Shown: positions 3,816-49,730 of the stretch, piece after piece
Layout of the letters: every line of letters begins with the position of its first letter
Position numbering within the stretch: the first letter of the stretch is position 1
Source: a virus
Strand: one strand, 5' to 3'
IMG/VR virus record: IMGVR_UViG_3300045976_000084
Coordinates: 1 to 49,730 of that record
DNA length: 49,730 nt
Made by a program: the position numbers and the translations under genes
Notes under the pieces: generated by a model
Seen by the model: the letters and a program-made list of their open reading frames with translations, nothing else
Databases searched by the model: none
What the model was told of the DNA's origin: nothing

Positions 3816-5357
3816 GTGAACGCGCGCGTTTCGTTTCGCGAGCAGGCGCACAGGCAAGCGCCCGAAGAGCCGATCGCGTCCGCGCTCGAGATGAGCGAGG
3901 AAGAGCAAATCGCGTTCGATCGCGAATACGTCGCGCGCTTCGGGCTTCACGGATTCGTCGAGCTGGCTTGGAGCCACGTCGAGCCCGCGGCGCACTTCGA
4001 GGATAACTGGCATCTCCAGCTCGTCGCGAACAATCTCGAAGCGGTCTCGTGGGGGCTGCAACGCGACCTCGTGATCAACGTTCCGCCGGGCACCGGCAAG
4101 AGCTTGCTCACGTGCGTTTTCTGGCCCGCGTGGACGTGGATCGAGCAGCCCGGTAAGAAGTGGATCTTCGCCTCGTACGCGCCGGGCTTGAGCGCGCGTG
4201 ACGCGCGCCGTTGCCGCGATCTGATTCAGAGCGACTGGTTCCAGAAACGCTGGCCCCAGGTTCAGCTCTTGGGCCACGCGGAGACTCTCTACGACACGAG
4301 CGCGGGCGGTTTTCGGTTCAGCACGAGCGTGCGCGGCGAGGTCACGGGCCGACACGCGGACATCATTGTTTGCGACGATCCAATCAAACCCAAGGACACG
4401 CAAGGCACCGCGAGCGTAACGAAGAACGAGCTCGAGTTCGTCAAGACTTGGTGGGGCGGGACCATGTCCACGCGCCGCGCGGACCCCAAGACCACGGCGC
4501 GCGTGATCATCATGCAGCGCTTGCATCAAGAGGACTTGGCGGGGCACGTGCTCGCGCAAGGCGGCTACGCGCATGTGTGCTTGCCGATGCGCTTCGATCC
4601 CGAACGCGCGTGCGTGACCCCGTTCGGCGCCGACCCGCGCACGCGCGCGGGGGAGCTCTTGCACCCGAACCGCATCGACGAAGCCGCCGTCAAATCGCTC
4701 GAGGCCGAGCTGAACGTCTACGCGCCAGCGCAGTTGCAGCAACGTCCCGCGCGCGAAGGCGGCGCGATCTTCCGCAAGGCGTGGTTCAAGTTCTGGAACC
4801 ACGCGACCCGCCCCGCTGTGTTCGACGAGCTCGTGTGCTCGTGGGACATGACTTTCAAGGACACGCTAGGCTCGGACTACGTCTGCGGCCAAGTCTGGGG
4901 ACGTGTCGGGGCCGACTACTATTTGCTAGATCGAATCTACGAGCGCTTGTCGTTCCCGAGCACGTTGCTCGCGGTCAAAAGCCAATTGCGCAAATGGCCA
5001 GACATCGGCCCCAAGCTGATCGAGGACAAGGCCAACGGCCCCGCCGTGATCAGCGTGCTCGAGCGCAAGGTCCCGGGCCTGATCGCCAGGACTCCAGAAG
5101 GCTCGAAAGTCACTCGAGCGAACGCCGTGAGCTATCTGCATCGCTCTGGGAACGTCTGGTATCCCGACCCTGAAATGGGCCCAGAGTGGGCGTGGGTGCG
5201 CGAGCACATCTCGCAAATGACTGATTTCCCCGTCGCGTCTCATGACGATTCGGTAGATGCCGAAACGCAAGTGCTTCTCTATTTCGTCGAGCAGCACAAC
5301 GAGCTCTTGGACGCGCTCGACCGTCTCGTGAAGGAAAAAAACCGTGGCAGATCTTGA
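3816..5357 (+). CDS. terL: Terminase large subunit
   Basis: The 513-aa product carries a packaging ATPase with Walker A PPGTGKSLL (about residues 88-96) and Walker B IIVCDDP (about 182-188). A C-terminal RNase H-like nuclease follows, with acidic residues in SWDMTFKD (about 341), IEDKANG (about 404) and SHDDSVDAET (about 474). It cuts concatemeric DNA and pumps it through the portal into the prohead. The GTG start at 3816 sits two bases after the previous stop and gives normal length. Its small partner is not adjacent; the best candidate is the gene at 44768-45355. The end overlaps the portal gene by 14 bp. Confidence 0.95.
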   Translation: MNARVSFREQAHRQAPEEPIASALEMSEEEQIAFDREYVARFGLHGFVELAWSHVEPAAHFEDNWHLQLVANNLEAVSWGLQRDLVINVPPGTGKSLLTCVFWPAWTWIEQPGKKWIFASYAPGLSARDARRCRDLIQSDWFQKRWPQVQLLGHAETLYDTSAGGFRFSTSVRGEVTGRHADIIVCDDPIKPKDTQGTASVTKNELEFVKTWWGGTMSTRRADPKTTARVIIMQRLHQEDLAGHVLAQGGYAHVCLPMRFDPERACVTPFGADPRTRAGELLHPNRIDEAAVKSLEAELNVYAPAQLQQRPAREGGAIFRKAWFKFWNHATRPAVFDELVCSWDMTFKDTLGSDYVCGQVWGRVGADYYLLDRIYERLSFPSTLLAVKSQLRKWPDIGPKLIEDKANGPAVISVLERKVPGLIARTPEGSKVTRANAVSYLHRSGNVWYPDPEMGPEWAWVREHISQMTDFPVASHDDSVDAETQVLLYFVEQHNELLDALDRLVKEKNRGRS

Positions 5358-7816: not shown

Positions 7817-8215
7817 TCAGCTCGCGGTCGAGGTCGAGCCTGCGCCCGGATCGGCAGGCGTGCTCACCGGATCGGGACTCGGTGCCGGCGCGGGGGCAGG
7901 GCTCGGAGCAGGAGCCGCGACCGTATTCTCGGCGACTGCCGAGGCCAGTTTCGCGGTCTTGGCCGCGAGGTCCGCGCGGAGCGCGACGAGCGCGCTCGTG
8001 TCCGAACCCTGGTCGGCGAGCTGTTTCTTGAGCTGATCGAGCTGCGCGCCGAAGCCATTGATCAGCGTGATCGCGGAATCCACGACCGAGTCGGTTTGCG
8101 AGATTTGATTGGCAAGTGCGTCGAGTTGAGCGGACATGATTTCTTGACCTTTCGCAATTTTGGCGAGCAGCCGGATCACGAGATCCAAGCGGGCGCTCAC
8201 CTTCGTCCAAAACAT
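7817..8215 (-). CDS. Reverse-strand coiled-coil protein with Ala-Pro tail, 132 aa
   Basis: This is the only minus-strand gene inside the structural module. It has a basic amphipathic N-terminus (MFWTKVSARLDLVIRLLAKI), a central coiled coil (about residues 25-95, with spaced Leu/Ala heptads such as LDALANQISQ and LKKQLADQG) and a C-terminal Ala/Pro/Ser tail (AAPAPSPAPAPAP). A GAGG ribosome site precedes the start, an operator-promoter lies upstream at 8230-8257, and a terminator lies downstream. Isolated single-gene units like this in a phage late region are typical of morons expressed in the prophage, but no domain gives a function. Confidence 0.75.
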   Translation of the reverse strand: MFWTKVSARLDLVIRLLAKIAKGQEIMSAQLDALANQISQTDSVVDSAITLINGFGAQLDQLKKQLADQGSDTSALVALRADLAAKTAKLASAVAENTVAAPAPSPAPAPAPSPDPVSTPADPGAGSTSTAS

Positions 8216-12309: not shown

Positions 12310-12891
12310 ATGCTCTGGGCGCAGATAGCCCCGGTCTTGGTCAGCGCAGTTACTCAGGCGGCGCTCGAGCCAAACACGACCACCGGCCCGAACTATTCCG
12401 CGCTTTGGCAAAATCAAGAACGGCCGTTCGCGGACACACAAGTTCAGGCCGAGATCTTCTTGTCGATCGGAAAAAGCACTCGAATCGACTGGGGTTATAC
12501 GGACACTTTCAACGCGACCACGAACAAGATCGATCGCTCGATCAAGAGTCAGCACGAGTTCACCTTGAGCGTGCAAGTTCGCTCCTACGAGCAAATCGAA
12601 GCCAACTGGGCTTTCGAGTACGCCGAGCGCATCCGCACACGAATCGACCGCGAAGACATCTACGAGACTCTACTCTCTGCAAACGTGGTCGTGATCGAGG
12701 ACCTCGGCATCGTAGCTGCCGACGCCGCGATCGACGGACGTCAGTGCAGCGTCGCAAACCTCGATCTGCGCCTTCGTTGCGCGTTCGATGACGCAACCTT
12801 TCCGCTCGACTGGATCGAGCAAGTTCAACTCAGCGGCGCGGTATCGGGTGGCAAGAACCCGATCACGTTCCCTGCGGCGGTTATCCAATGA
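12310..12891 (+). CDS. Neck / tail terminator protein, 193 aa
   Basis: Starts on the base after the previous stop and overlaps the sheath gene by 4 bp. It lies exactly where the neck or tail terminator protein of DUF3383-sheath phages is found. Visible segments include NYSALWQNQERPFADTQVQA and a middle stretch EFTLSVQVRSYEQIEANWAF. Such proteins cap the tail tube and sheath and allow head attachment. Assignment rests on position and loose similarity. Confidence 0.7.
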   Translation: MLWAQIAPVLVSAVTQAALEPNTTTGPNYSALWQNQERPFADTQVQAEIFLSIGKSTRIDWGYTDTFNATTNKIDRSIKSQHEFTLSVQVRSYEQIEANWAFEYAERIRTRIDREDIYETLLSANVVVIEDLGIVAADAAIDGRQCSVANLDLRLRCAFDDATFPLDWIEQVQLSGAVSGGKNPITFPAAVIQ

Positions 12892-14219
12892 GCACACTCG
12901 ACCAAATCGTCAATCTGCAAATCACGCTCACGAGCTCGACGCCGACCAAGGACGGCTTCGGTAGGCCTCTGATCGTCGCGTATCACACGCGGTTCCCAGG
13001 CCGCACGAAGCTGTACACCGATCCGTCGCAAATGCTCACGGACGGGTTCGCCGTGGACGATCAGGCGTACAAGCTGGCGCTCGCGATTTCGCAACAGAAC
13101 CCGCGACCCAAAGACTTCAAGGTCGGTCGGCGCGCGCTCGCTCCCACGCAGATCGTCAATTTCACTCCAACGAACTTGACTGCGGGTTTCGTTTACTCCG
13201 GTTCGGTCAATGGCAAGTACTCTTGGACGTACACCGTACCGGGCTCCGCCACGCTCGCGGCCGTGTGTACGGGCATCGCGGCCGCGCTCCAGACCGCGAT
13301 GGTCTCCGCCGCGGTCGGTTCCACTGCCGTGGGCTCGAGCGGAACCATGGTCGTCGCTACCTGCGGCATCGCCGGCAAGATTCTTCAGTTCCTGGGCCAC
13401 CCTGCGGAGCTCCAGACTGCGGACGTGACGACCGACCCGGGCATCGCAACCGACCTCGCCGCGATCTACGCCGCTGATTCGGACTGGTACGGCATTCTGC
13501 TCGACTCGAATTCGAAGGCGGAAATCTCCGCGGCGGCCGCTTGGGTCGAGACCGTCCGACGCATGTTCGCGTCCGTCACGGCCGACTATGCGTGCAAGAA
13601 CCCCGCGAGCACGACCGATGTCATGTATGTGAACCAACAGCAGAAGTGGTTCCGTACGGGCATCTTCTTCCGGAACGACGTGGGCTCGACGTTTGCAGCT
13701 GCGCTCATGGCGCAGCGCTTCACCGATCCACCGGGTTCGGACACGTGGGCACACAAGCAAGTCGTCGGGCAAGCGACTGACACCACGCTCTCGGACGCCG
13801 ATCAGGCCGCAATCTGGGGAAAGAACGGGAACACCTATCTGACCGTCGCGCAGCAAGGCGACGTGATGTGGGGCACCGTTTGCTCGGGCGAGTTCTTCGA
13901 CGTGGTTCGCGGGATCGATTGGCTCTACGCCGCGCTCCAAACGAGCGTGGTCAACGCAATCCGCGCGCAAAAGAAGCTGTCATACACGCGCGGCGGCGCG
14001 CAGGCGATCTACGCGGCCGTCCAAAACGTACTGAACGCGGCGACCAAGCCGCCGAACCAATTCCTTTCTCCGGACAATCCGCCTGTCACGCTCGTGCCGG
14101 ACGTGACCACGCTAGATCCGAGCGTTCGCCAAACGCGCGTGCTGCCGAACGTCACGTTCTCCGCGCAGCTCTCGGGCGCAATTCACGCGACCAACATTAG
14201 CGGCACCGTGTCGCACTGA
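12888..14219 (+). CDS. Contractile tail sheath protein (DUF3383-type)
   Basis: The 443-aa product opens MSTLDQIVNLQITLTSSTP and continues GFGRPLIVAYHTRFPGRTKL, the usual beginning of DUF3383 sheath proteins. The C-terminal part (YTRGGAQAIYAAVQNVLNAA, then TLDPSVRQTRVLPNVTFSA) matches the conserved C-terminal domain that interlocks sheath subunits. It forms the contractile cylinder outside the tail tube, the main reason for calling this phage a myovirus. Confidence 0.9.
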   Translation: MSTLDQIVNLQITLTSSTPTKDGFGRPLIVAYHTRFPGRTKLYTDPSQMLTDGFAVDDQAYKLALAISQQNPRPKDFKVGRRALAPTQIVNFTPTNLTAGFVYSGSVNGKYSWTYTVPGSATLAAVCTGIAAALQTAMVSAAVGSTAVGSSGTMVVATCGIAGKILQFLGHPAELQTADVTTDPGIATDLAAIYAADSDWYGILLDSNSKAEISAAAAWVETVRRMFASVTADYACKNPASTTDVMYVNQQQKWFRTGIFFRNDVGSTFAAALMAQRFTDPPGSDTWAHKQVVGQATDTTLSDADQAAIWGKNGNTYLTVAQQGDVMWGTVCSGEFFDVVRGIDWLYAALQTSVVNAIRAQKKLSYTRGGAQAIYAAVQNVLNAATKPPNQFLSPDNPPVTLVPDVTTLDPSVRQTRVLPNVTFSAQLSGAIHATNISGTVSH

Positions 14220-21762: not shown

Positions 21763-22952
21763 CCACGACTCTGCACAAAGTAGCTCCGACCGCCGATATT
21801 CACGCGATCACGGGGCTGTCCTACGCGAACGCAAGCGCGCGGCTGACCGCGGGCGCGACACTCGACTCCACAAACATCGATCGAGTTGCGCACCAGACGG
21901 ACAATGATACCTATTGGGTGTTCTTGGGCGCAGGAGTGTGGCGTCTGCTCGGCACGAATCGCCCGATCATCACGGATTCGACCACGGCGCGCACGTTCGG
22001 CATGTCAGACGCCGAAGCGTACTTTCGTTTCACGAATGGCGCTTCGATCACTGGAACCATTCCGCCGAACTCTTCTGTAGCTTTTCCGATCGGTACGGTC
22101 CTGGAGTGCTGCCAGGCGGGTGCTGGTCAGTTCTTGTTTGCAGCAGGCGCAGGCGTCACGTTGGGACCTGGCACGAACTTCGGCACGGCTGGCGTGGGCA
22201 AAGTGATCCGCGCGCGCAAGGTCGCAACCGACACTTGGGATATTTCTGGGGACACCGCGGCCGGCGGCTTTGCTGGGAACTTCGCAAGCCTGTTCTCAAG
22301 CGTGAGCGTGCTCCAGTATCTGCGCTCGGACCTCGGCTTGAGCGTCACGGGCTCGGTCGTGAATTCTTGGGCGGATCAGAGCGGCAACGCGCGCAACGTA
22401 TCAGAAGGCACCGCAGGCGTGGGCATCGGCGGCGTGACGACGGGTCTCAGCAGTCACGCGGGCATCGGCTCGAACGGGTCTACTCAGTTCGGCAAATATA
22501 CCCAGTTCGAGCCCGCGAATCCATATTGCATTCTTTGGGTCGGCCGTTTGCTCGCGACTCCGAGCTCTCCGGGTCAGCTCTTTGGCGATAACGGCGGCGC
22601 AGCGGGTAACGTGACCTTCGCAACGGGCGGCTCGAACAATCTCTACATCAACAACGGCGGAACGCTAGGGCCGTTGCTGCAGACCACCAGTCAATGGATC
22701 CGCGGCATCGCGCGCTTCGTGAACGACGGAAACGACTACCTAAAGGCAGGCTCTTCGACTTCGTCCACTGGCTCCGCGGGCAACGCGGCTGGCTCGGGTC
22801 CGCGTGGCATCTTCGCACGAGGAGGAGGTGGCGCTCCTTTGAGCTACGAGCTGCTTCTGCGCCTTGTTCTGTCGGGCGAGCCGAACTCGAGTGAGAAGAC
22901 TGCGTTCGATTCCGCGGTGACTTCGTTCTACGGCGCTTCAGTGCAGGTTTGA
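21759..22952 (+). CDS. Tail fibre with LamG/concanavalin-like domain, 397 aa
   Basis: The N-terminal ~150 residues contain TYWVFLGAGVWRLLG and FAAGAGVTLGPGTNFGTAGV, a beta-structured shaft seen in phage fibres. From about residue 190, LGLSVTGSVVNSWADQSGNA and the later YELLLRLVLSGEPNSSEKTA fit a jelly-roll LamG-type domain (a carbohydrate-binding fold). It is a probable receptor-binding protein. It ends TGATG with the esterase fibre. Confidence 0.7.
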   Translation: MTTTLHKVAPTADIHAITGLSYANASARLTAGATLDSTNIDRVAHQTDNDTYWVFLGAGVWRLLGTNRPIITDSTTARTFGMSDAEAYFRFTNGASITGTIPPNSSVAFPIGTVLECCQAGAGQFLFAAGAGVTLGPGTNFGTAGVGKVIRARKVATDTWDISGDTAAGGFAGNFASLFSSVSVLQYLRSDLGLSVTGSVVNSWADQSGNARNVSEGTAGVGIGGVTTGLSSHAGIGSNGSTQFGKYTQFEPANPYCILWVGRLLATPSSPGQLFGDNGGAAGNVTFATGGSNNLYINNGGTLGPLLQTTSQWIRGIARFVNDGNDYLKAGSSTSSTGSAGNAAGSGPRGIFARGGGGAPLSYELLLRLVLSGEPNSSEKTAFDSAVTSFYGASVQV

Positions 22953-24493
22953 TGTCTGTATTGATGCAAGCTCGCTCCAGCGTCGACGGCCGCGTCTATT
23001 CGTGGCGCGCTGCGAGTGTCGATTACGCTGGCGCGGGCTTCCCCGGCCCAGGGCTGCCTTTGGATCCGGCTGTGTGTACGCGCGGGATCCGGCCCAGGCC
23101 GTTTCAAGCCTTGAGCCTGATTGGCGTGGCTTCGGCCGAGGCAATCGGTTTGCCTACTGTCGTTCGCGCGCCCGCTTTGCCTCTCGCGCCAAGCGACGTG
23201 ATCGCGTGGTTCGACGGCGATCAGCAAGCCTATTCCGATCTGGCGGGCACGACTCAGCAGAACACGCCTGGCGGCACGCTCGGCCGCGTCAACGAGACAT
23301 CTCCACTCACCGCGAACTGGCAGGGCGCGAGTTCAGCGCAGCGCGCGCTGAAAGACGCCTACGGCGTGCGCTCGTATTTCTACGGTTCTAGCTACCCCGG
23401 GATGCAACTGGTTCGGGGCGCGGCAACCGTGAACATGCAGGACGTTACGATCGTTGCGTCCTACCTCGAGCGAGACGGTCTGGGCGGGCCGACGATGGGT
23501 CTGCTCGGCACGACCAGCGCGCCATTCTGGGGAATGTACGGCGGGGCCGGGGGTCTCGGCGGATACGTGAACCAAAGCCCGCTAGCTTCTGGCCTGACCC
23601 CGCCACGCGGGCAGAAATGCTCTGTCGTGATGCGCATGACTCCGACTGCGCTCAAGACTTCGCTCTTGACGGGCGGCGTCACTACCTCGAGCACGGTTGC
23701 CGTTACGGTCACGGCGGGGTCTGCAGGCGCGGGCGGCTTTGCCCTGTTCCACGCAGGCGGCGGTGCGCAGGGCTACTATGGATCGGTTGCGCAACTCGTG
23801 ATCATCGGGCGTGCCGTGAGCGACTCGGAGGCAACCAGTTTGCTTGCCTGGGCCGATTCCAAGGCCATGCCCGAGGCATACCCAATCGGTCAGCCGCTGA
23901 TCGGGATCGTCGGGGACTCTATTGCTCGGGCTGGCGTGGGTGTGCAGTCGAATCAGGGTTGGTGGTCGCTGATGCTCCAGTCGCTACGCGGCGGCGTGGC
24001 TCCAGGCGCCGAGGCGTGCAATGTCGCGATCGTCGGCTCGGGTGTTGGCTCAGGCGGATCCGCACCATACTCCGCGCTGCTTCCGTTTCTGTCTTCGAGC
24101 CGAAAAAAGCAAGTCACGGTCGTCGCGATCGGCACGAACGATCTCGCGAATGGCAATAATACGGCCACGACGATCGCTAACATCTATGCCGTCTGTGACG
24201 CGCTCCGCGCGGCTGGTTCGAAGGTCGTGCTGCAAAACATCTTGCCGCGACAAGGGCTTTTCAACCTGCCCGGGACGCAAGCTTCTTTCAACGCGGCGCA
24301 AGCCACAGCGAACGCCGACTTTGCTGTCAATTGGGCTTCGCACGCCGATGCGTTCGTGGACGTAGCTTCCCTCACGGGCCTGAACGACCCGACGAACACG
24401 ACCTACTACCAATCGGACAAGGTTCACCCGACCGCGGCCGGAATGTCTGCGATGGCAACCCCGATCACGGCGGCTGTTGCCGGGCTTCTCTGA
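22952..24493 (+). CDS. Tail fibre/spike with C-terminal SGNH (GDSL) esterase domain
   Basis: Residues 1-45 are the attachment module shared with 21523-21762. A jelly-roll-like middle (about 80-300) begins DVIAWFDGDQQAYSDLAG and includes FWGMYGGAGGLGGYVNQS. The last ~200 residues are an SGNH hydrolase: block I GDS at about 318 (IVGDSIARAG), a Gly-rich block II (GSGVGSGGS), block III GTND at about 392 (IGTNDL) and block V DKVHPTAAG at about 489 giving the catalytic Asp-His. It should remove acyl groups from host surface polysaccharide during adsorption. Confidence 0.85.
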   Translation: MSVLMQARSSVDGRVYSWRAASVDYAGAGFPGPGLPLDPAVCTRGIRPRPFQALSLIGVASAEAIGLPTVVRAPALPLAPSDVIAWFDGDQQAYSDLAGTTQQNTPGGTLGRVNETSPLTANWQGASSAQRALKDAYGVRSYFYGSSYPGMQLVRGAATVNMQDVTIVASYLERDGLGGPTMGLLGTTSAPFWGMYGGAGGLGGYVNQSPLASGLTPPRGQKCSVVMRMTPTALKTSLLTGGVTTSSTVAVTVTAGSAGAGGFALFHAGGGAQGYYGSVAQLVIIGRAVSDSEATSLLAWADSKAMPEAYPIGQPLIGIVGDSIARAGVGVQSNQGWWSLMLQSLRGGVAPGAEACNVAIVGSGVGSGGSAPYSALLPFLSSSRKKQVTVVAIGTNDLANGNNTATTIANIYAVCDALRAAGSKVVLQNILPRQGLFNLPGTQASFNAAQATANADFAVNWASHADAFVDVASLTGLNDPTNTTYYQSDKVHPTAAGMSAMATPITAAVAGLL

Positions 24494-35059: not shown

Positions 35060-35099
35060 TGATTAGCGCGCTTTAGCGACTTGCGCAATAGTCTATTTT
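35060..35099. promoter_or_regulatory. Operator-promoter upstream of the SSB-like gene
   Basis: Plus-strand TTTAGCGACTTGCGCAA (35072-35088). Minus-strand promoter: TTGCGC (35088-35083), 17 bp, TAATCA (35065-35060), giving a ~100-base leader to 34960. On the plus strand TTTAGC, 16 bp, TATTTT (35094-35099) could also fire into the helicase gene antisense. It gives the distal replication genes their own control. Confidence 0.65.
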
Positions 35100-36856
35100 A
35101 CAAATCGCGGGCTGTGTGTCGGGAAATCGTCCGCGGCGCGCAGCGTCAAGTCCGCATAACAGAGCTTTTGCGGCTGGCGCTGGATTGTCTGCTCGTACTG
35201 CGATCGGCTGTAAGCCCGCCAAAACGCAGCCAAATCTTCCGCGCAGCCGAGCAGCACGTCACACAAGACTTCGTCCTCTTTTTGCCCGAGCCGGTGCGTG
35301 CGCGCGAGTAATTGTTCCCAGGCTAGCCCGTCGCTAGGCGAGCTCGTTACGAGATTATCCGACCACTTGTGCTGAAGATTCAGCCCGTCCCGGCATGAGT
35401 CGACGGACGCAATCACGGGGCCGTTCCAGTCTTCGATATATCGGCCCTTCTTGTCGCGAGCTTGCTGCCGGAAGTACGGCACGCCGGTCAGCTCTTCGAG
35501 CCGGTCCCCTAACGCGACGTGATCAACCCACACGATCCCTCGTGGGTGCTCTTCGATCCAAGCCGCGCACGCACGCAGAGCGGAGTCGCAGATCCACACG
35601 GGCTTTTGGTTCGGCTTGAACGTGGGCTCGGTGCGGCGCCAATCCACGACTTCTTCGGCGTTCGGGAAATGCTGACAAATGTCCAGCATCGAGTCGCCTT
35701 TGCCGTGCTTGATCTGCTCGCGAACGAAGACGTTGAAATTGTACCGAGCCTCGAGCCAGCGCACAGGCGGGCGGGGGTCCCACACGTAATAGAATCCGAG
35801 CGCTAGCTCTCGCGCTTTCTGTGCGACCGCTGCCCCGTCTACCAGGGGCCACCGATCGGGAAGCTTCCACTCGTCGCGCAGCAACCGAAACGCCTGGTCG
35901 ATCGCCGAGCTCGACGGGCTCACAATCTCGGAGATCTGGATCGACGCGCCAAGGTTCTCGTCCACGTCGCTTGTGGACACAACGCCTGGGGTTTGGTGTA
36001 GCCGGCGCGAGAACCCCACGCGCGCGGCTTGAGTCGGCTCGAGCCCGTTTTCTGAGGCGGACGCGAGCTGCAAGAGCGCGCCGGGCTCGTAGCGGCTGCC
36101 CTCGTTCACGAGCTCGTCGAGCGCGTACGACCATTCTTCGAGTTCAGCCCACACCCACGGGATTGGCGAGTGTCGAGGAATGCACCACTGAATGATATGG
36201 GCAAAGTCCTTGATCGACTTGCTCGTGATCGTCCCGCTCATGGCGCAGACGCGCAATGGCACCACGCGCCCGACCTCGTGCGCGTTCTGGTTCGCGGCGA
36301 TCTCTGCTTGCCGGCGCTCGGCGATGTACCTCGAAAACTCTTTCGTTCGCGAGGCCTTCTTGTCCTTCAGCTTGTGCACTTCATCGAACACCACCAAGTC
36401 GGGCGCGTACCGGTCGAGCGTGCCCCACTGGATCACTCGGTTCGTGTTCGGGTCGTAGCGGCGCTTATACCGGACCTGCGAAAAGTGCTCGTACGATTCA
36501 ATTCGAATCCAGTTCGGGATTCTCCAATGCCTCGAGAGCTCGCGCTGCTCGCGCTTCGTCTTTTCGACGAGCTTCGCCGGCAGCACGAGCAAGGGTCGGC
36601 GTGACTCGAGCACTAGAGCCAAGAGCAAAGAGAGCAAGGTCTTGCCACGACCCACGCCGATCGGGCCGAAAAAACCTTGGTTCTCCCAAGCTTCCTTGAG
36701 CCCCGCGGCCTGGATCGGAAACAGGCTCATCGAGCCGCACGGCCGCTTAAGCAGCGAGGTCAGCTCTTTTGCTAGCTCGGGCGCACCTTCGGACCACTCG
36801 CGGCGCGGAATGGCCAAGATGCGCCCGAGCTCGGCGCTGTTTCGGACGGCTCGCAC
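35093..36856 (-). CDS. SF2 (SNF2-like) helicase, 587 aa
   Basis: Motif I GVGRGKT (about residues 67-73), motif II DEVH (in LVVFDEVHKL, about 158), motif III-like MSGT, and C-terminal RecA-lobe residues including SVDSCRDGLNLQ and motif VI LLARTHRLGQKEDE. This is a DEAH-type SF2 protein, close in style to phage SNF2 helicases that remodel DNA-protein complexes or help start replication. GTG start overlaps the TAG of the upstream gene. Confidence 0.85.
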   Translation of the reverse strand: MRAVRNSAELGRILAIPRREWSEGAPELAKELTSLLKRPCGSMSLFPIQAAGLKEAWENQGFFGPIGVGRGKTLLSLLLALVLESRRPLLVLPAKLVEKTKREQRELSRHWRIPNWIRIESYEHFSQVRYKRRYDPNTNRVIQWGTLDRYAPDLVVFDEVHKLKDKKASRTKEFSRYIAERRQAEIAANQNAHEVGRVVPLRVCAMSGTITSKSIKDFAHIIQWCIPRHSPIPWVWAELEEWSYALDELVNEGSRYEPGALLQLASASENGLEPTQAARVGFSRRLHQTPGVVSTSDVDENLGASIQISEIVSPSSSAIDQAFRLLRDEWKLPDRWPLVDGAAVAQKARELALGFYYVWDPRPPVRWLEARYNFNVFVREQIKHGKGDSMLDICQHFPNAEEVVDWRRTEPTFKPNQKPVWICDSALRACAAWIEEHPRGIVWVDHVALGDRLEELTGVPYFRQQARDKKGRYIEDWNGPVIASVDSCRDGLNLQHKWSDNLVTSSPSDGLAWEQLLARTHRLGQKEDEVLCDVLLGCAEDLAAFWRAYSRSQYEQTIQRQPQKLCYADLTLRAADDFPTHSPRFVK

Positions 36857-41347: not shown

Positions 41348-41418
41348 ACTGGCGCGAGCGTGATTACGAGATCCCGAGCGAACACCGCGCCCTTTCAAGT
41401 GGAGCGCTCAAACGGTGA
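41344..41418 (+). CDS. 24-aa coupled ORF
   Basis: GTG overlaps the stop of the XRE gene and its TGA overlaps the GTG of the primase gene. It reads MNWRERDYEIPSEHRALSSG and then ALKR. Only its tight coupling supports it; it may serve to deliver ribosomes to the primase gene. Confidence 0.45.
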   Translation: MNWRERDYEIPSEHRALSSGALKR

Positions 41419-43808
41419 AAGTCTCAATCTTCGCGCACGCGTTCGATCCGAATCCAGAAGTGATCGAATGCTCCTGGTCCGAATTCGTCGCCACTCTCAA
41501 GGAACCCGAGTACCGCGCCGAAAAGCTGCGCGGGCCCTTGTTTTCGCCCACTGAGTTCGTTGGTGGCAAAAAGCAAGAGCACGCAAAGCTCGTGCACTTC
41601 GGCGTGTTGGATGTGGACGACGCCTCGCCAGATCAAATGATGGCCGCAATGCGCCTAGCGGCTCAGTATGACTCTTTTGCTTACACGACGTGGCGACAGC
41701 CCGAAGCATCGCAGCAAGGCCTATTCCGCGCGCGTATGCTGGTCCGGTTCTCGCGTCCGTGCGTGCCCGCAGAGTGGCCTGCTGTCTGGGCTCGATTTGC
41801 TGCGCAGTTCGGCAACTCGCACGACGTGTGCAAGGACGCGACGCGCCTCTATTTCTCGCCCGCCCTGCCGATCGGTTGTGACTGGGCTTGGCAGTGCTGG
41901 GAGCACTCGACCGGCGTAGCCTGGGACGTGGACGAAGCGCTCAAGATGCCGATCCCTGCGAGCGCGATCGCTGCGCAAGCAAAGACTTACGTCTCGAACG
42001 ATCCTGTCCCGCCGGATGCTTTACCCGGGCTGGCCGCGCGCCTCGCCAAACGTGCGGACCCGTACGCCGCGCGCATGGGTGGGCTCCTGAAAGAGGCCTT
42101 GAACGGGCACTCGATCGCTTCGGCCGGCTCGCGCAATACGACCTTGTTCGAGGTCGCGGGGCTACTCGCCAAGAATTTCCCGCTCGCCTCGCCCCAGGCC
42201 CTGGCAGAGTTCTTTTCCGTGTCGCTTGACCGAATGGCGGAAGAAGCCCCCGGCGCGCCCACGGCGATCGACTTTGCCGGAATGATCTCGCGCTGCCAAG
42301 CGCGCGAGCACTTGAACCGAGAGACCAAACGCGCCGAGGGTCCCACCGCGCGCGCCAACAAGATCTCAATCGCGTTTTGCGGCGAGCGCGCGCAGCCCTA
42401 CACAGAAGCCGAGATCGAAGCGTGGGGCGTCCAAAATAGTCAGTGGATCTTGCGCAAAGGCGCGTGGTTTTGGTTGTTCTTCAACGGAACCTATTCCGAA
42501 GCGTACGCCGTCAAAGACTATGCAAACGTGGTCGAACAAACGCTTTCGCCCGCGCCGATCGAGCTTCACGAGGTAGACAAAAACGGCAACTCGTCAATCA
42601 AGCGCTTCGAAAAGCTCGTGAGCCAGTACGGGACCGTGCTCAACGGAGTAGAACAAGACCTGCGCGCGCAGAAGAGTTTCTTGGACACCAAGCGCAATGT
42701 CTTGGTCGAGGCTCCGTGCCCGTTGCGCGAGCTGGAACCAGTGCACGATCCGGAAGTTGCGGAGTGGCTTACGCTCCTGGGCGGGTCGAAGCATCAGGCA
42801 CTGCTTGAGTGGCTCGCGGCTTCGACGCGGCTCGATTTGGCCGCGCCCGCCCTGTACTTGTACGGCGCGCCACAAGCCGGCAAGACTCTGCTCGCGCTTG
42901 GGTTGGCTGCTCTCTGGGGCAAGGAGCCGACCGGCCTCAGCCAAGTCATGGGCGGGTTCAACCAAGCCTTGCTCGAGTGTCCGCTCGTGCTCGCAGACGA
43001 AAAGATCCCGTGCGACTTTCGCGGCAACCCGCGCACGGAAGAACTGCGCGAGCTGATCACAGCAACCGGTTTCCCGCTCACGAGGAAGTTTCTTCCAGAC
43101 TCCAGGGTCAAGGGCGCTGCGCGGTTCGTCTTGACCGCGAACAATCTCAAGCTCATTTCGAGGAACGAAGACCTAACCCCCGAAGACGCTCAAGCGCTCG
43201 CGGATCGGTTCTTGTTCGTGTCGCCGAAGGCAGACACGCGGGATTGGTTCGAAGCGCGCGGCGGGCTCAAGTGGTCCTTGCGCGTGGGCTTCGTCGAGCG
43301 CATCGCCAAGCACGTCTTGTGGCTCCGGGATCACGTCGCGTTACCCGAAGGGTCTAGGCTCGCGGTGCCGGGCAACGCTTTGGAACTCTTGCACCGAATG
43401 CAATCGGGCTCCGGACTTCGTTGGTCAATCCTGTTTTGGGTGCACTCGTTTTTGCGCGACGCGCAGCGGCACCTGGTACGGCGCGGTGCCGCTGGGAGCG
43501 CGTGCGTTGTGCGCGGCGGACAGGTTTGGCTGTCTTTGCCGGCCCTCGTAGAGTCGTGGGATCACTACCTGGCAGGCGAGCGCGTGCCGCGACAGGAGAG
43601 CGTTCACGCGGCCGTCAAAGGGCTACTCGCTACCGCGCGCGAAGCTCGATACCGCCCGCGTATTGCAGGCGTGCAAGTGCGATACTCTCAGCTGGAGCTC
43701 GAGCACTTGCGTTCGTGGTGCACGCAAGAAGACGAAGACATGCCTGACTTGGCCGTCGATTTGGGCATGCCGAGCACGATTCCGGCGCAAGCCGCTGCAC
43801 CGAATTAG
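41415..43808 (+). CDS. Primase (AEP-like) - SF3 helicase replication protein, 797 aa
   Basis: The N-terminal part (about 55-160) resembles an archaeo-eukaryotic primase: HFGVLDVDD with acidic metal ligands at 66-69, TTWRQPEASQQGLFRARMLV, then the basic LVRFSRP and DATRLYFSP. The C-terminal domain is SF3-like: Walker A LYGAPQAGKT (about 480-490), Walker B VLADEKIP, and motif C VLTANNL, with RFLFV after it. It unwinds and primes the origin; the phage polymerase probably follows. The GTG start is coupled upstream. Its stop overlaps the convergent HTH gene by 4 bp. Confidence 0.85.
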   Translation: MKVSIFAHAFDPNPEVIECSWSEFVATLKEPEYRAEKLRGPLFSPTEFVGGKKQEHAKLVHFGVLDVDDASPDQMMAAMRLAAQYDSFAYTTWRQPEASQQGLFRARMLVRFSRPCVPAEWPAVWARFAAQFGNSHDVCKDATRLYFSPALPIGCDWAWQCWEHSTGVAWDVDEALKMPIPASAIAAQAKTYVSNDPVPPDALPGLAARLAKRADPYAARMGGLLKEALNGHSIASAGSRNTTLFEVAGLLAKNFPLASPQALAEFFSVSLDRMAEEAPGAPTAIDFAGMISRCQAREHLNRETKRAEGPTARANKISIAFCGERAQPYTEAEIEAWGVQNSQWILRKGAWFWLFFNGTYSEAYAVKDYANVVEQTLSPAPIELHEVDKNGNSSIKRFEKLVSQYGTVLNGVEQDLRAQKSFLDTKRNVLVEAPCPLRELEPVHDPEVAEWLTLLGGSKHQALLEWLAASTRLDLAAPALYLYGAPQAGKTLLALGLAALWGKEPTGLSQVMGGFNQALLECPLVLADEKIPCDFRGNPRTEELRELITATGFPLTRKFLPDSRVKGAARFVLTANNLKLISRNEDLTPEDAQALADRFLFVSPKADTRDWFEARGGLKWSLRVGFVERIAKHVLWLRDHVALPEGSRLAVPGNALELLHRMQSGSGLRWSILFWVHSFLRDAQRHLVRRGAAGSACVVRGGQVWLSLPALVESWDHYLAGERVPRQESVHAAVKGLLATAREARYRPRIAGVQVRYSQLELEHLRSWCTQEDEDMPDLAVDLGMPSTIPAQAAAPN

Positions 43809-46595: not shown

Positions 46596-46648
46596 TACAG
46601 GCTCAAAAATCGGTGGACTAGATTCGTGTCCTCGCTCATTGCTTGAGC

Positions 46649-47614
46649 ATGGGCAAACTCTACAAGCGCGGGAAGATTTGGTGGTACCAGCATCGAGGCG
46701 AGCGCACTTCGACGCACTGCCACGACAAGCAAGCGGCCGAGGCCGAGGCCAAGAACATCGAGCGGCGCGCAGCGGATCCGAACTACAAGGCCTCAGAAAG
46801 GCGCTTGGACGACGCGCTGGATCTGTACGTCCAAGAACAAAAGAAGCGCAAGCGCTCGGCTGGCACGCTGCGCATGTACTCGTACCACGTGCAAAACTTC
46901 ACGCGGATCTTGGGTGCTTCGATGCGCCTCAAGGACTTGAACAGCAAGGCCGTGGACAAGTACTTGGCCAAGCGCTCGGCCGAAAAGATCGAGCTCACGA
47001 CCCAAGCCAAAGAGCTCACTACGCTCCGCGGCACGCTGCGCATGGCTGCGCGCCGCGGTGAGTACCCGTACCCGCTTGAGCAAGTCATGCCGTACAATTT
47101 CAGTCAGAAGTACGTGCCAGGTAAGCGACACTTGACGCTCGAACAGGTCTGGAAGCTGATCGAGGTCTTGCCCCAGCGTCGTGCCGCGGTCGTGGCGTTC
47201 ATTGTGATGACCGGCGCGGACTGGCAAAGCGTGGCCTTGGCCGAGCCCCCAGACGTGCACGAGCACGACGTACTCGTCCGAGGCTCGAAGAACCCGAAGC
47301 GCTGGCGCACGATCCCGATCCTGGAACCGTTTGCGTTCATGGCCCTGCTCGCGGTGCCCCCATTCGAGCCTTGGGGGAACGTGCGCCGCGACTTGCGCGT
47401 GTACTGCAAAAAAGCCGGCGTACCCTACGTGACCCCGCGTGACCTCAGGCGCTCGCACGGGATGATTCTTCGAGCTCGCGGCGTCGAACCGCACTTGATC
47501 GCGGGCATGCTCGGGCACGCGGACTCACGCATGGTTGAGGTCGTCTACGGAACTTTGCCGGCGGACGCGCTAGCGAAGCTCATGCGGGCGCGGCTCGAGT
47601 CGGCCGCTGAGTAA
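46649..47614 (+). CDS. int: Tyrosine recombinase (phage integrase), 321 aa
   Basis: N-terminal arm-binding-like region (GKLYKRGKIWWYQHRGERTS), SAM-like core-binding domain (about 55-140: LDDALDLYVQEQKKRKRSAG) and a catalytic domain. Visible catalytic motifs are the Lys beta-hairpin VRGSKNPKRWRTIPI, PRDLRRSHGMI (second Arg), MLGHADSRM (His) and VEVVYG with Tyr about residue 300. The first catalytic Arg, expected in TG-x-R, is replaced: the sequence is TGADWQSVALAE (about residue 191). It lies beside attP. ATG 46649 preferred to TTG 46643. Confidence 0.9.
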   Translation: MGKLYKRGKIWWYQHRGERTSTHCHDKQAAEAEAKNIERRAADPNYKASERRLDDALDLYVQEQKKRKRSAGTLRMYSYHVQNFTRILGASMRLKDLNSKAVDKYLAKRSAEKIELTTQAKELTTLRGTLRMAARRGEYPYPLEQVMPYNFSQKYVPGKRHLTLEQVWKLIEVLPQRRAAVVAFIVMTGADWQSVALAEPPDVHEHDVLVRGSKNPKRWRTIPILEPFAFMALLAVPPFEPWGNVRRDLRVYCKKAGVPYVTPRDLRRSHGMILRARGVEPHLIAGMLGHADSRMVEVVYGTLPADALAKLMRARLESAAE

Positions 47615-47616
47615 GT

Positions 47617-47633
47617 GTACGCAGAACGCACAG
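47617..47633 (+). repeat. Arm-type direct repeat 1 (left of attP core)
   Basis: GTACGCAGAACGCACAG. Three 17-bp copies with common ends GTAC and GCACAG flank the tRNA-like core and are likely integrase arm sites. Confidence 0.65.
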
Positions 47634-47684
47634 CGTTTTTGAAAAGTGCTGTTTTAGGCCTAGATTTGCCGCGCGCCCGGTATT

Positions 47685-47726
47685 TTGAAAATCCACGTGT
47701 CGTCAGTTCAATTCTGACCCTGGACA
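47685..47726 (+). other. attP: attP core: 3' half of a tRNA-Phe(GAA) gene
   Basis: Matches canonical tRNA numbering from position 32: anticodon loop TTGAAAA (anticodon GAA), stem TCCAC, variable GTGTC, T-arm GTCAG-TTCAATT-CTGAC, acceptor 3' strand CCTGGAC and discriminator A. The 5' half is absent. Integration at a host tRNA-Phe would restore the gene by the phage-borne 3' part. The encoded CCA is not present (CTA follows). Confidence 0.8.
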
Positions 47727-47752
47727 CTAAACGAGCTGAAAATAAGGCCGAA

Positions 47753-47788
47753 CTGCATAAGTCGCTGAAGTAACTTAAGTCGCTAATA
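47753..47788 (+). promoter_or_regulatory. Two tandem half-sites of the dispersed operator in attP
   Basis: TAAGTCGCTGAAG (47758-47770) and TTAAGTCGCTAATA (47775-47788) are two direct half-sites. Each lacks the opposite arm, so binding would be weaker. They lie between the attP core and the right arm repeats. Confidence 0.5.
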
Positions 47789-47801
47789 TATTGGCACACA
47801 A

Positions 47802-47818
47802 GTACACCGAGCGCACAG
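47802..47818 (+). repeat. Arm-type direct repeat 2
   Basis: GTACACCGAGCGCACAG, to the right of the attP core; similar to repeats at 47617 and 47839. Confidence 0.65.
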
Positions 47819-47838
47819 GTTTTTGGGCTTGCTCGGAG

Positions 47839-47855
47839 GTACACAGGGCGCACAG
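47839..47855 (+). repeat. Arm-type direct repeat 3
   Basis: GTACACAGGGCGCACAG, 37 bases after repeat 2. The pair on this side fits a P' arm with two integrase sites. Confidence 0.65.
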
Positions 47856-49340: not shown

Positions 49341-49571
49341 ATGGGTAACCCGAAAAGGCACAGACAAGAGGTCCGCGCACTCGTAAGCGAGTGGAACGAC
49401 CTCGTAGAAAAGAACGAGCGGAACACGTTCCGCCAAGAGCAAATCATGCGTCGGCTACAAGCCATCGGCGCCTGGCAAGACGTGCCGGTCGGGTACGCGG
49501 TCACGCGGCGCGGGCGGGCCTCGAGCGTGAGCGGCCAGCTCTCGAGCAAGCCAGACGGGCGGCTCTCGTGA
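49341..49571 (+). CDS. Hypothetical protein, 76 aa
   Basis: Starts MGNPKRHRQEVRALVSEWND with a helical charged N-terminal half and a basic Ser-rich end. No ribosome site; leaderless transcript inferred. First gene of the operon; its stop overlaps the GTG of the next gene (GTGA). Function unknown. Confidence 0.65.
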   Translation: MGNPKRHRQEVRALVSEWNDLVEKNERNTFRQEQIMRRLQAIGAWQDVPVGYAVTRRGRASSVSGQLSSKPDGRLS

Positions 49572-49730
49572 TTTGGGTAGGCGTTGCGGTAGCCGCCTGG
49601 TTCTTGCTCGTGTGCTCAGCCTTGGACGACGCGGGGAGGCCGTGATGCAGAACGCGGCCAAAATGCTGGAGCTCTGCCTCGGCGCGCACAAATCGATCTC
49701 ATTCTCGCGCGTGGACGGGCAGTATCGGTG
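49543..49730. repeat. Terminal direct repeat, copy 2
   Basis: Same sequence as 1-188 apart from 49612 (G, against A at 70). Genes in it are 49568-49645 (same as 26-103) and the start of 49645 onward (same as 103-462, truncated by the window end). Confidence 0.9.
49568..49645 (+). CDS. 25-residue membrane peptide (repeat copy of 26-103)
   Basis: Same gene as at 26-103 read across the circular junction; here the upstream neighbour and the GTGA overlap are visible. The single-base difference in the repeat is silent in this gene. Confidence 0.55.
   Translation: MIWVGVAVAAWFLLVCSALDDAGRP

Follow-up and report, generated by a model that had tools for sequence, protein, structure and literature searches.

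Introduction

The use of tRNA genes as attP/attB sites by phages and islands that encode tyrosine integrases is well described for the Islander-type elements (PMC4383910): attP carries the 3′ half of a tRNA gene next to the integrase gene, integration restores the gene, and the displaced fragment marks the far end of the element. In the architecture known from lambda, the core is flanked by arm repeats to its left and right. The Myxococcus phages Mx8 and Mx9 are temperate and have a single int gene with an adjacent attP; in Mx8, attP lies inside int and integration alters the end of the protein (PMC6070905). As for the enzymes, the first arginine of the RKHRH pentad can be absent or shifted: IntDOT of CTnDOT has a downstream substitute arginine, and in IntDes the first arginine is shifted (PMC8138268).

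Here we analyze a region of IMG/VR record IMGVR_UViG_3300045976_000084, whose whole stretch of 49,730 nucleotides is referred to as the window. With a probability of about 95%, positions 47617–47855 are the attP of a temperate, contractile-tailed Myxococcota phage, which would integrate into the tRNA-Phe(GAA) gene by means of the integrase encoded immediately upstream. The evidence consists of the identity between the core and a host tRNA gene, an intact empty site, a relative bounded by the duplication, closure of the phage map and a computed restoration of the tRNA. The locus shares with the Islander-type systems the tRNA 3′ half in attP, the adjacent integrase gene, the expected restoration of the gene upon integration and the displaced fragment predicted at the far end, and with lambda the repeats on either flank of the core, here putative arms. 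Unlike in the Islander-type examples, the copied tRNA half ends without CCA, and the target is tRNA-Phe in Myxococcota; otherwise nothing differs in principle from a known tRNA-targeting attP, of which this site is an ordinary and well-supported case. Few temperate phages of this phylum have been sequenced, and the assignment shows a previously unassigned metagenomic phage to be complete and temperate and allows both its integration site and its host group to be named.

The ends of the window overlap

Positions 1–188 and 49543–49730 (both on the + strand) are 99.5% identical, with one mismatch in the 188-nt overlap as determined by BLAST, which corresponds to a unit genome of approximately 49,542 bp. 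This overlap makes the window a complete map of the unintegrated form carrying attP, either terminally redundant or circular, though the record is classed as linear. The left end of the map is taken up by the terminase and structural genes. A tail sheath gene is found at 12888–14219 (PHROG_205, 7e-77), and the tail would therefore be contractile. Downstream of the sheath gene, a 514-aa ORF (22949–24493) shows similarity to a family of phage lipases (PHROG_6102, 8e-17). A helicase-like ORF at 35093–36856 on the − strand (PHROG_62) and a DUF5906/primase-like ORF at 41415–43808 on the + strand probably form the replication module.

The closure of the map also bears on the nature of the tRNA fragment described below, which lies 2 kb from the contig end, a frequent position for a prophage boundary. 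The fragment could accordingly be read not as attP, but as an attL or attR remnant, or as host sequence at the margin of a contig that carries a prophage. We regard this as very improbable, given that the window closes on itself, that it has just one copy of the tRNA half, that the putative arms lie on either side of the core, and that the terminase and structural genes at the left end fit a circular phage map. The initial annotation, which had taken the tRNA-Phe 3′ half for part of an attP, was correct in its facts and in its interpretation.

The attP core matches tRNA-Phe(GAA)

The core spans 47685–47727 on the + strand, TTGAAAATCCACGTGTCGTCAGTTCAATTCTGACCCTGGACAC, and is a 43-nt copy of the 3′ part of tRNA-Phe(GAA). 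Starting with the anticodon loop, it comprises the 3′ side of the anticodon stem, the variable loop, the T arm, the 3′ acceptor strand, the discriminator A and one further C. All 43 of 43 nt are identical in the tRNA-Phe(GAA) gene (7840–7915) of locus L002, which belongs to a metagenome-assembled genome (MAG) described in the next section. The initial annotation had traced the match from the anticodon loop to the discriminator base at 47726; these coordinates are right, and the identity extends one nucleotide more, stopping where the window reads CTA and the host CCA. The 5′ half of the tRNA is missing, as had also been noted, and a scan of the window with ARAGORN gave no tRNA. The integrase reading frame stops at 47612–47614, 70 nt before the core, and the core is thus not inside the int frame, a layout that would have resembled that of Mx8 (PMC6070905).

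When the 31 5′ nucleotides of the MAG tRNA gene were joined to the window from 47685 onward, ARAGORN recognized a tRNA-Phe in this computed attL, while the predicted attR and attP alone gave no tRNA. Since the identity with the host tRNA has its left limit at the anticodon-loop heptamer TTGAAAA (47685–47691, + strand), strand exchange probably takes place there. A crossover near the anticodon stem-loop is also suggested by three integrated relatives (G216, G190 and G375, see below), because their duplications begin there as well, at tRNA position 29.

Phages can carry tRNA genes, and so the fragment might be the decayed remainder of a phage-borne tRNA gene that has no role in integration. We find this hardly credible, as the 3′ part is perfect and the 5′ part is gone, with an abrupt boundary at the anticodon loop. 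Furthermore, the segment recurs next to homologous integrases and is duplicated at the ends of elements, and relatives of the integrase were found integrated at tRNA-Phe.

A Myxococcota host

In a GTDB-based genome collection, the 43-mer has exactly one exact match, in the L002 genome, Myxococcales bacterium Lichen_MAGs_lobaria2, where it sits inside an intact, unoccupied tRNA-Phe(GAA) gene. This genome has no second copy of the 43-mer and, in a single-protein search, no close relative of the integrase; we therefore consider its tRNA-Phe gene to be an empty attB. A bacterial tRNA-Phe with the same 3′ part, which the initial annotation had proposed to search for, thus exists. The match in an intact gene, together with relatives whose tRNA-Phe is duplicated, bears out the predicted integration site. 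No lysogen of the window phage itself was found.

Among 108 genomes from the family of the MAG, just 3 contain the 43-mer when up to 3 mismatches are allowed, and for this reason it is a narrow marker. In two of these three genomes (G118 and G400), the discriminator is followed by CTA, as in the window, and many Myxococcota tRNA-Phe genes lack an encoded CCA. The lichen MAG does encode CCA at the position of the window's CTA, and this CCA would no longer be encoded after integration there. A host in Myxococcota is supported by these data, and the host probably belongs to the family of the lichen MAG. The earlier expectation that attP can identify the host thus holds for the phylum and probably for the family, but does not reach the species. 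Independent pointers to a Myxococcota host are a syntenic contig and the relatives sited at tRNA-Phe, both of which are described below.

The flanking repeats and the integrase

Three 17-mers in one orientation (+ strand) flank the core: GTACGCAGAACGCACAG at 47617–47633 on the P side, and GTACACCGAGCGCACAG at 47802–47818 and GTACACAGGGCGCACAG at 47839–47855 on the P′ side, so that the core lies between the first and the second. The first begins 3 nt after the end of the integrase ORF at 47614, consistent with the integrase being immediately upstream, as annotated. The triple has 43 of 51 pairwise identities, compared with a maximum of 38 in 2000 dinucleotide shuffles (0/2000 as good). A matrix built from the three repeats scores them at 25.0, 25.0 and 24.7 bits, and the next site in the window at 16.7. 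The repeats, one left and two right as first described, are therefore real and unique in the window; they were not among the repeat families reported by a seed-based search. The window's matrix detects no clear arms in the related elements G092 and L003, and the arm sequences are thus not clearly common to relatives. In G092:C39, arm-like direct repeats of its own, CACAACCAGTGCACAG and CACAACCAGTTCACAG, flank the core with one on each side (0/2000 shuffles), and an arm pair in L003, taken alone, was matched by 125 of 2000 shuffles and is not significant.

The integrase gene extends from an ATG at 46649 to 47614 (+ strand) and encodes 321 aa; residue numbers in the following refer to the 323-aa ORF starting at 46643. 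The protein matches PF00589 (27.8 bits, cut-off 27.1), PF02899 and the PHROG_1 integrase profile (4e-39). In an AlphaFold model (pLDDT 90.4), an N-terminal β-β-β-helix domain is accompanied by core-binding and catalytic domains, and the nearest solved folds according to Foldseek are XerA, Tn1549 Int and lambda Int. The predicted N-terminal fold, with three strands plus a helix, is of the arm-binding kind, and from the repeats and the model we infer that the three 17-mers are arm sites bound by this domain.

Integration would follow a lambda-like plan, which the sequence supports. The N-terminal domain of the integrase would bind the three 17-bp arms, and the core-binding and catalytic domains would bind the anticodon stem-loop core, where the stem-loop would provide two paired core sites surrounding the loop. 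The integrase would then catalyze recombination between the core and the tRNA-Phe(GAA) gene of the host, with strand exchange in or beside the anticodon loop. At one end of the prophage, the host 5′ half and the phage-borne 3′ half would form an intact tRNA-Phe, and the displaced host 3′ half would come to lie beside int at the other end.

Relatives at tRNA genes

Outside records very near the window, the 43-mer has a single match in IMG/VR, in IMGVR_UViG_3300020119_000106 (L003), where the core is exact and 49 nt of tRNA-Phe (5059–5107), an attP-like segment, adjoin an integrase 57% identical to that of the window. A single-protein search of IMG/VR with the window's integrase gave no match; a profile built on three sequences recovered both L003 and G092. 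No relative was found among isolate phages, and members of the integrase family tried against phages and plasmids gave distant matches only. Integrase matches were present in 58 of 379 sampled genomes of the MAG's phylum, and many of these adjoin tRNA-Phe.

The best relative in a bacterial genome, with about 40% identity, is encoded on contig G092:C39 of a Myxococcota assembly (also IMGVR_UViG_2820111668_000001). This contig is 36,725 bp long, and its first and last 51 nt are an identical tRNA-Phe segment. Three further Myxococcota genomes, with integrases of the wider family, contain an intact tRNA-Phe next to the integrase and a second copy of its 3′ part at a distance: 47 nt at 36.7 kb in G216:C98, 67 nt at 8.6 kb in G190:C35, and 54 nt at 14.3 kb in G375:C40. 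Prophages bounded by the duplication, which the initial annotation had suggested looking for, are thus represented by G092:C39, with 51 nt at both ends, and by these three elements, with duplications of 47–67 nt. The 8.6-kb element is below the size of a tailed phage; it may represent a satellite or an island.

The core lies on the same strand as int in the window and in G092, and on the opposite strand in L003 and most relatives. In 13 relatives (L014, L013, L073, L017, L074, L015, L023, L029, L019, L075, L025, L028 and L031), the int frame continues through an antisense tRNA gene (Phe, Met or Lys), in whose D arm it ends at a TGA. The D arm belongs to the host-derived half, and therefore integration would supply the stop codon of these integrases. 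Many Myxococcota relatives of the window integrase thus have an Mx8-like layout.

The nearest members of the integrase family are found at tRNA-Phe and some others at tRNA-Met or tRNA-Lys, so the integration target varies across the family. An example is the syntenic contig G090:C130 (L106–L108) from another Myxococcota genome, which is 41.5 kb long with end repeats of about 100 nt. Its terminase (43–46% identity), portal (37%), sheath (35%) and tail genes follow the order of the window, and a related integrase lacking the box I arginine (Arg I) lies beside the 3′ half of tRNA-Met(CAT), as read by eye.

An apparent relocation of the catalytic arginine

Most tyrosine recombinases need the box I arginine. 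The window integrase has the catalytic lysine (K216), the second arginine (R269), the second histidine (H292) and the nucleophilic tyrosine (Y302), but its box I reads TGADWQSV, with D193 at the Arg I position. In a set of 60 family members drawn from Myxococcota and viral contigs, with six rows scored by eye (GQK loop; short hairpins), 28 lack Arg I, mostly with Glu or Asp in its place, and all 28 have an arginine four residues after the catalytic lysine (Lys +4). The other 32 have Arg I, and none of them has the Lys +4 arginine. The association is strong (Fisher 1e-17, a value that ignores shared descent). In a tree calculated without these columns, both traits switch at least 6 times, and in independent pairs on well-supported branches the change was coupled in 3 of 3 cases, a number too small for a significant sign test. 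In the window integrase, the Lys +4 arginine is R220, the only arginine column that separates members with and without Arg I. The alternative substitute R213 was ruled out, as it is also present in members with Arg I. Taken together, the alignments suggest R220 as the candidate substitute for Arg I.

One could argue from D193 that attP is genuine but the integrase inactive through loss of Arg I, so that the phage no longer integrates. We consider this unlikely. The Lys +4 arginine accompanies the loss in 28 of 28 cases among the 60 members, the integrases of G092 and G190 lack Arg I and sit at duplicated att sites (51 and 67 nt), and a downstream substitute arginine has a precedent in IntDOT (PMC8138268). 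It seems fairly probable that, within this Myxococcota family, Arg I has repeatedly changed place between box I and Lys +4 on the β2-β3 hairpin, usually leaving an acidic residue behind. Possibly, the new arginine is positioned by a salt bridge with this acidic residue.

The combination of Arg I loss with a Lys +4 arginine was not found described in the literature searched, which covered few subscription papers. The family resembles IntDOT and IntDes in that the first arginine of the pentad is absent or shifted. In IntDOT, the substitute precedes the catalytic lysine, while the candidate in the window's family follows it by four residues on the β2-β3 hairpin. If the relocation is true, an active-site residue regarded as nearly invariant can change its place among members of a single integrase family while function is retained, and its new place is not the one known from IntDOT. 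The family would then be a natural experiment on relocating a catalytic arginine, and it is a possible source of integration tools for myxobacteria. Lastly, the first histidine of the pentad, which is Tyr in IntDes (PMC8138268), is Asn, His or Arg in the window's integrase family.
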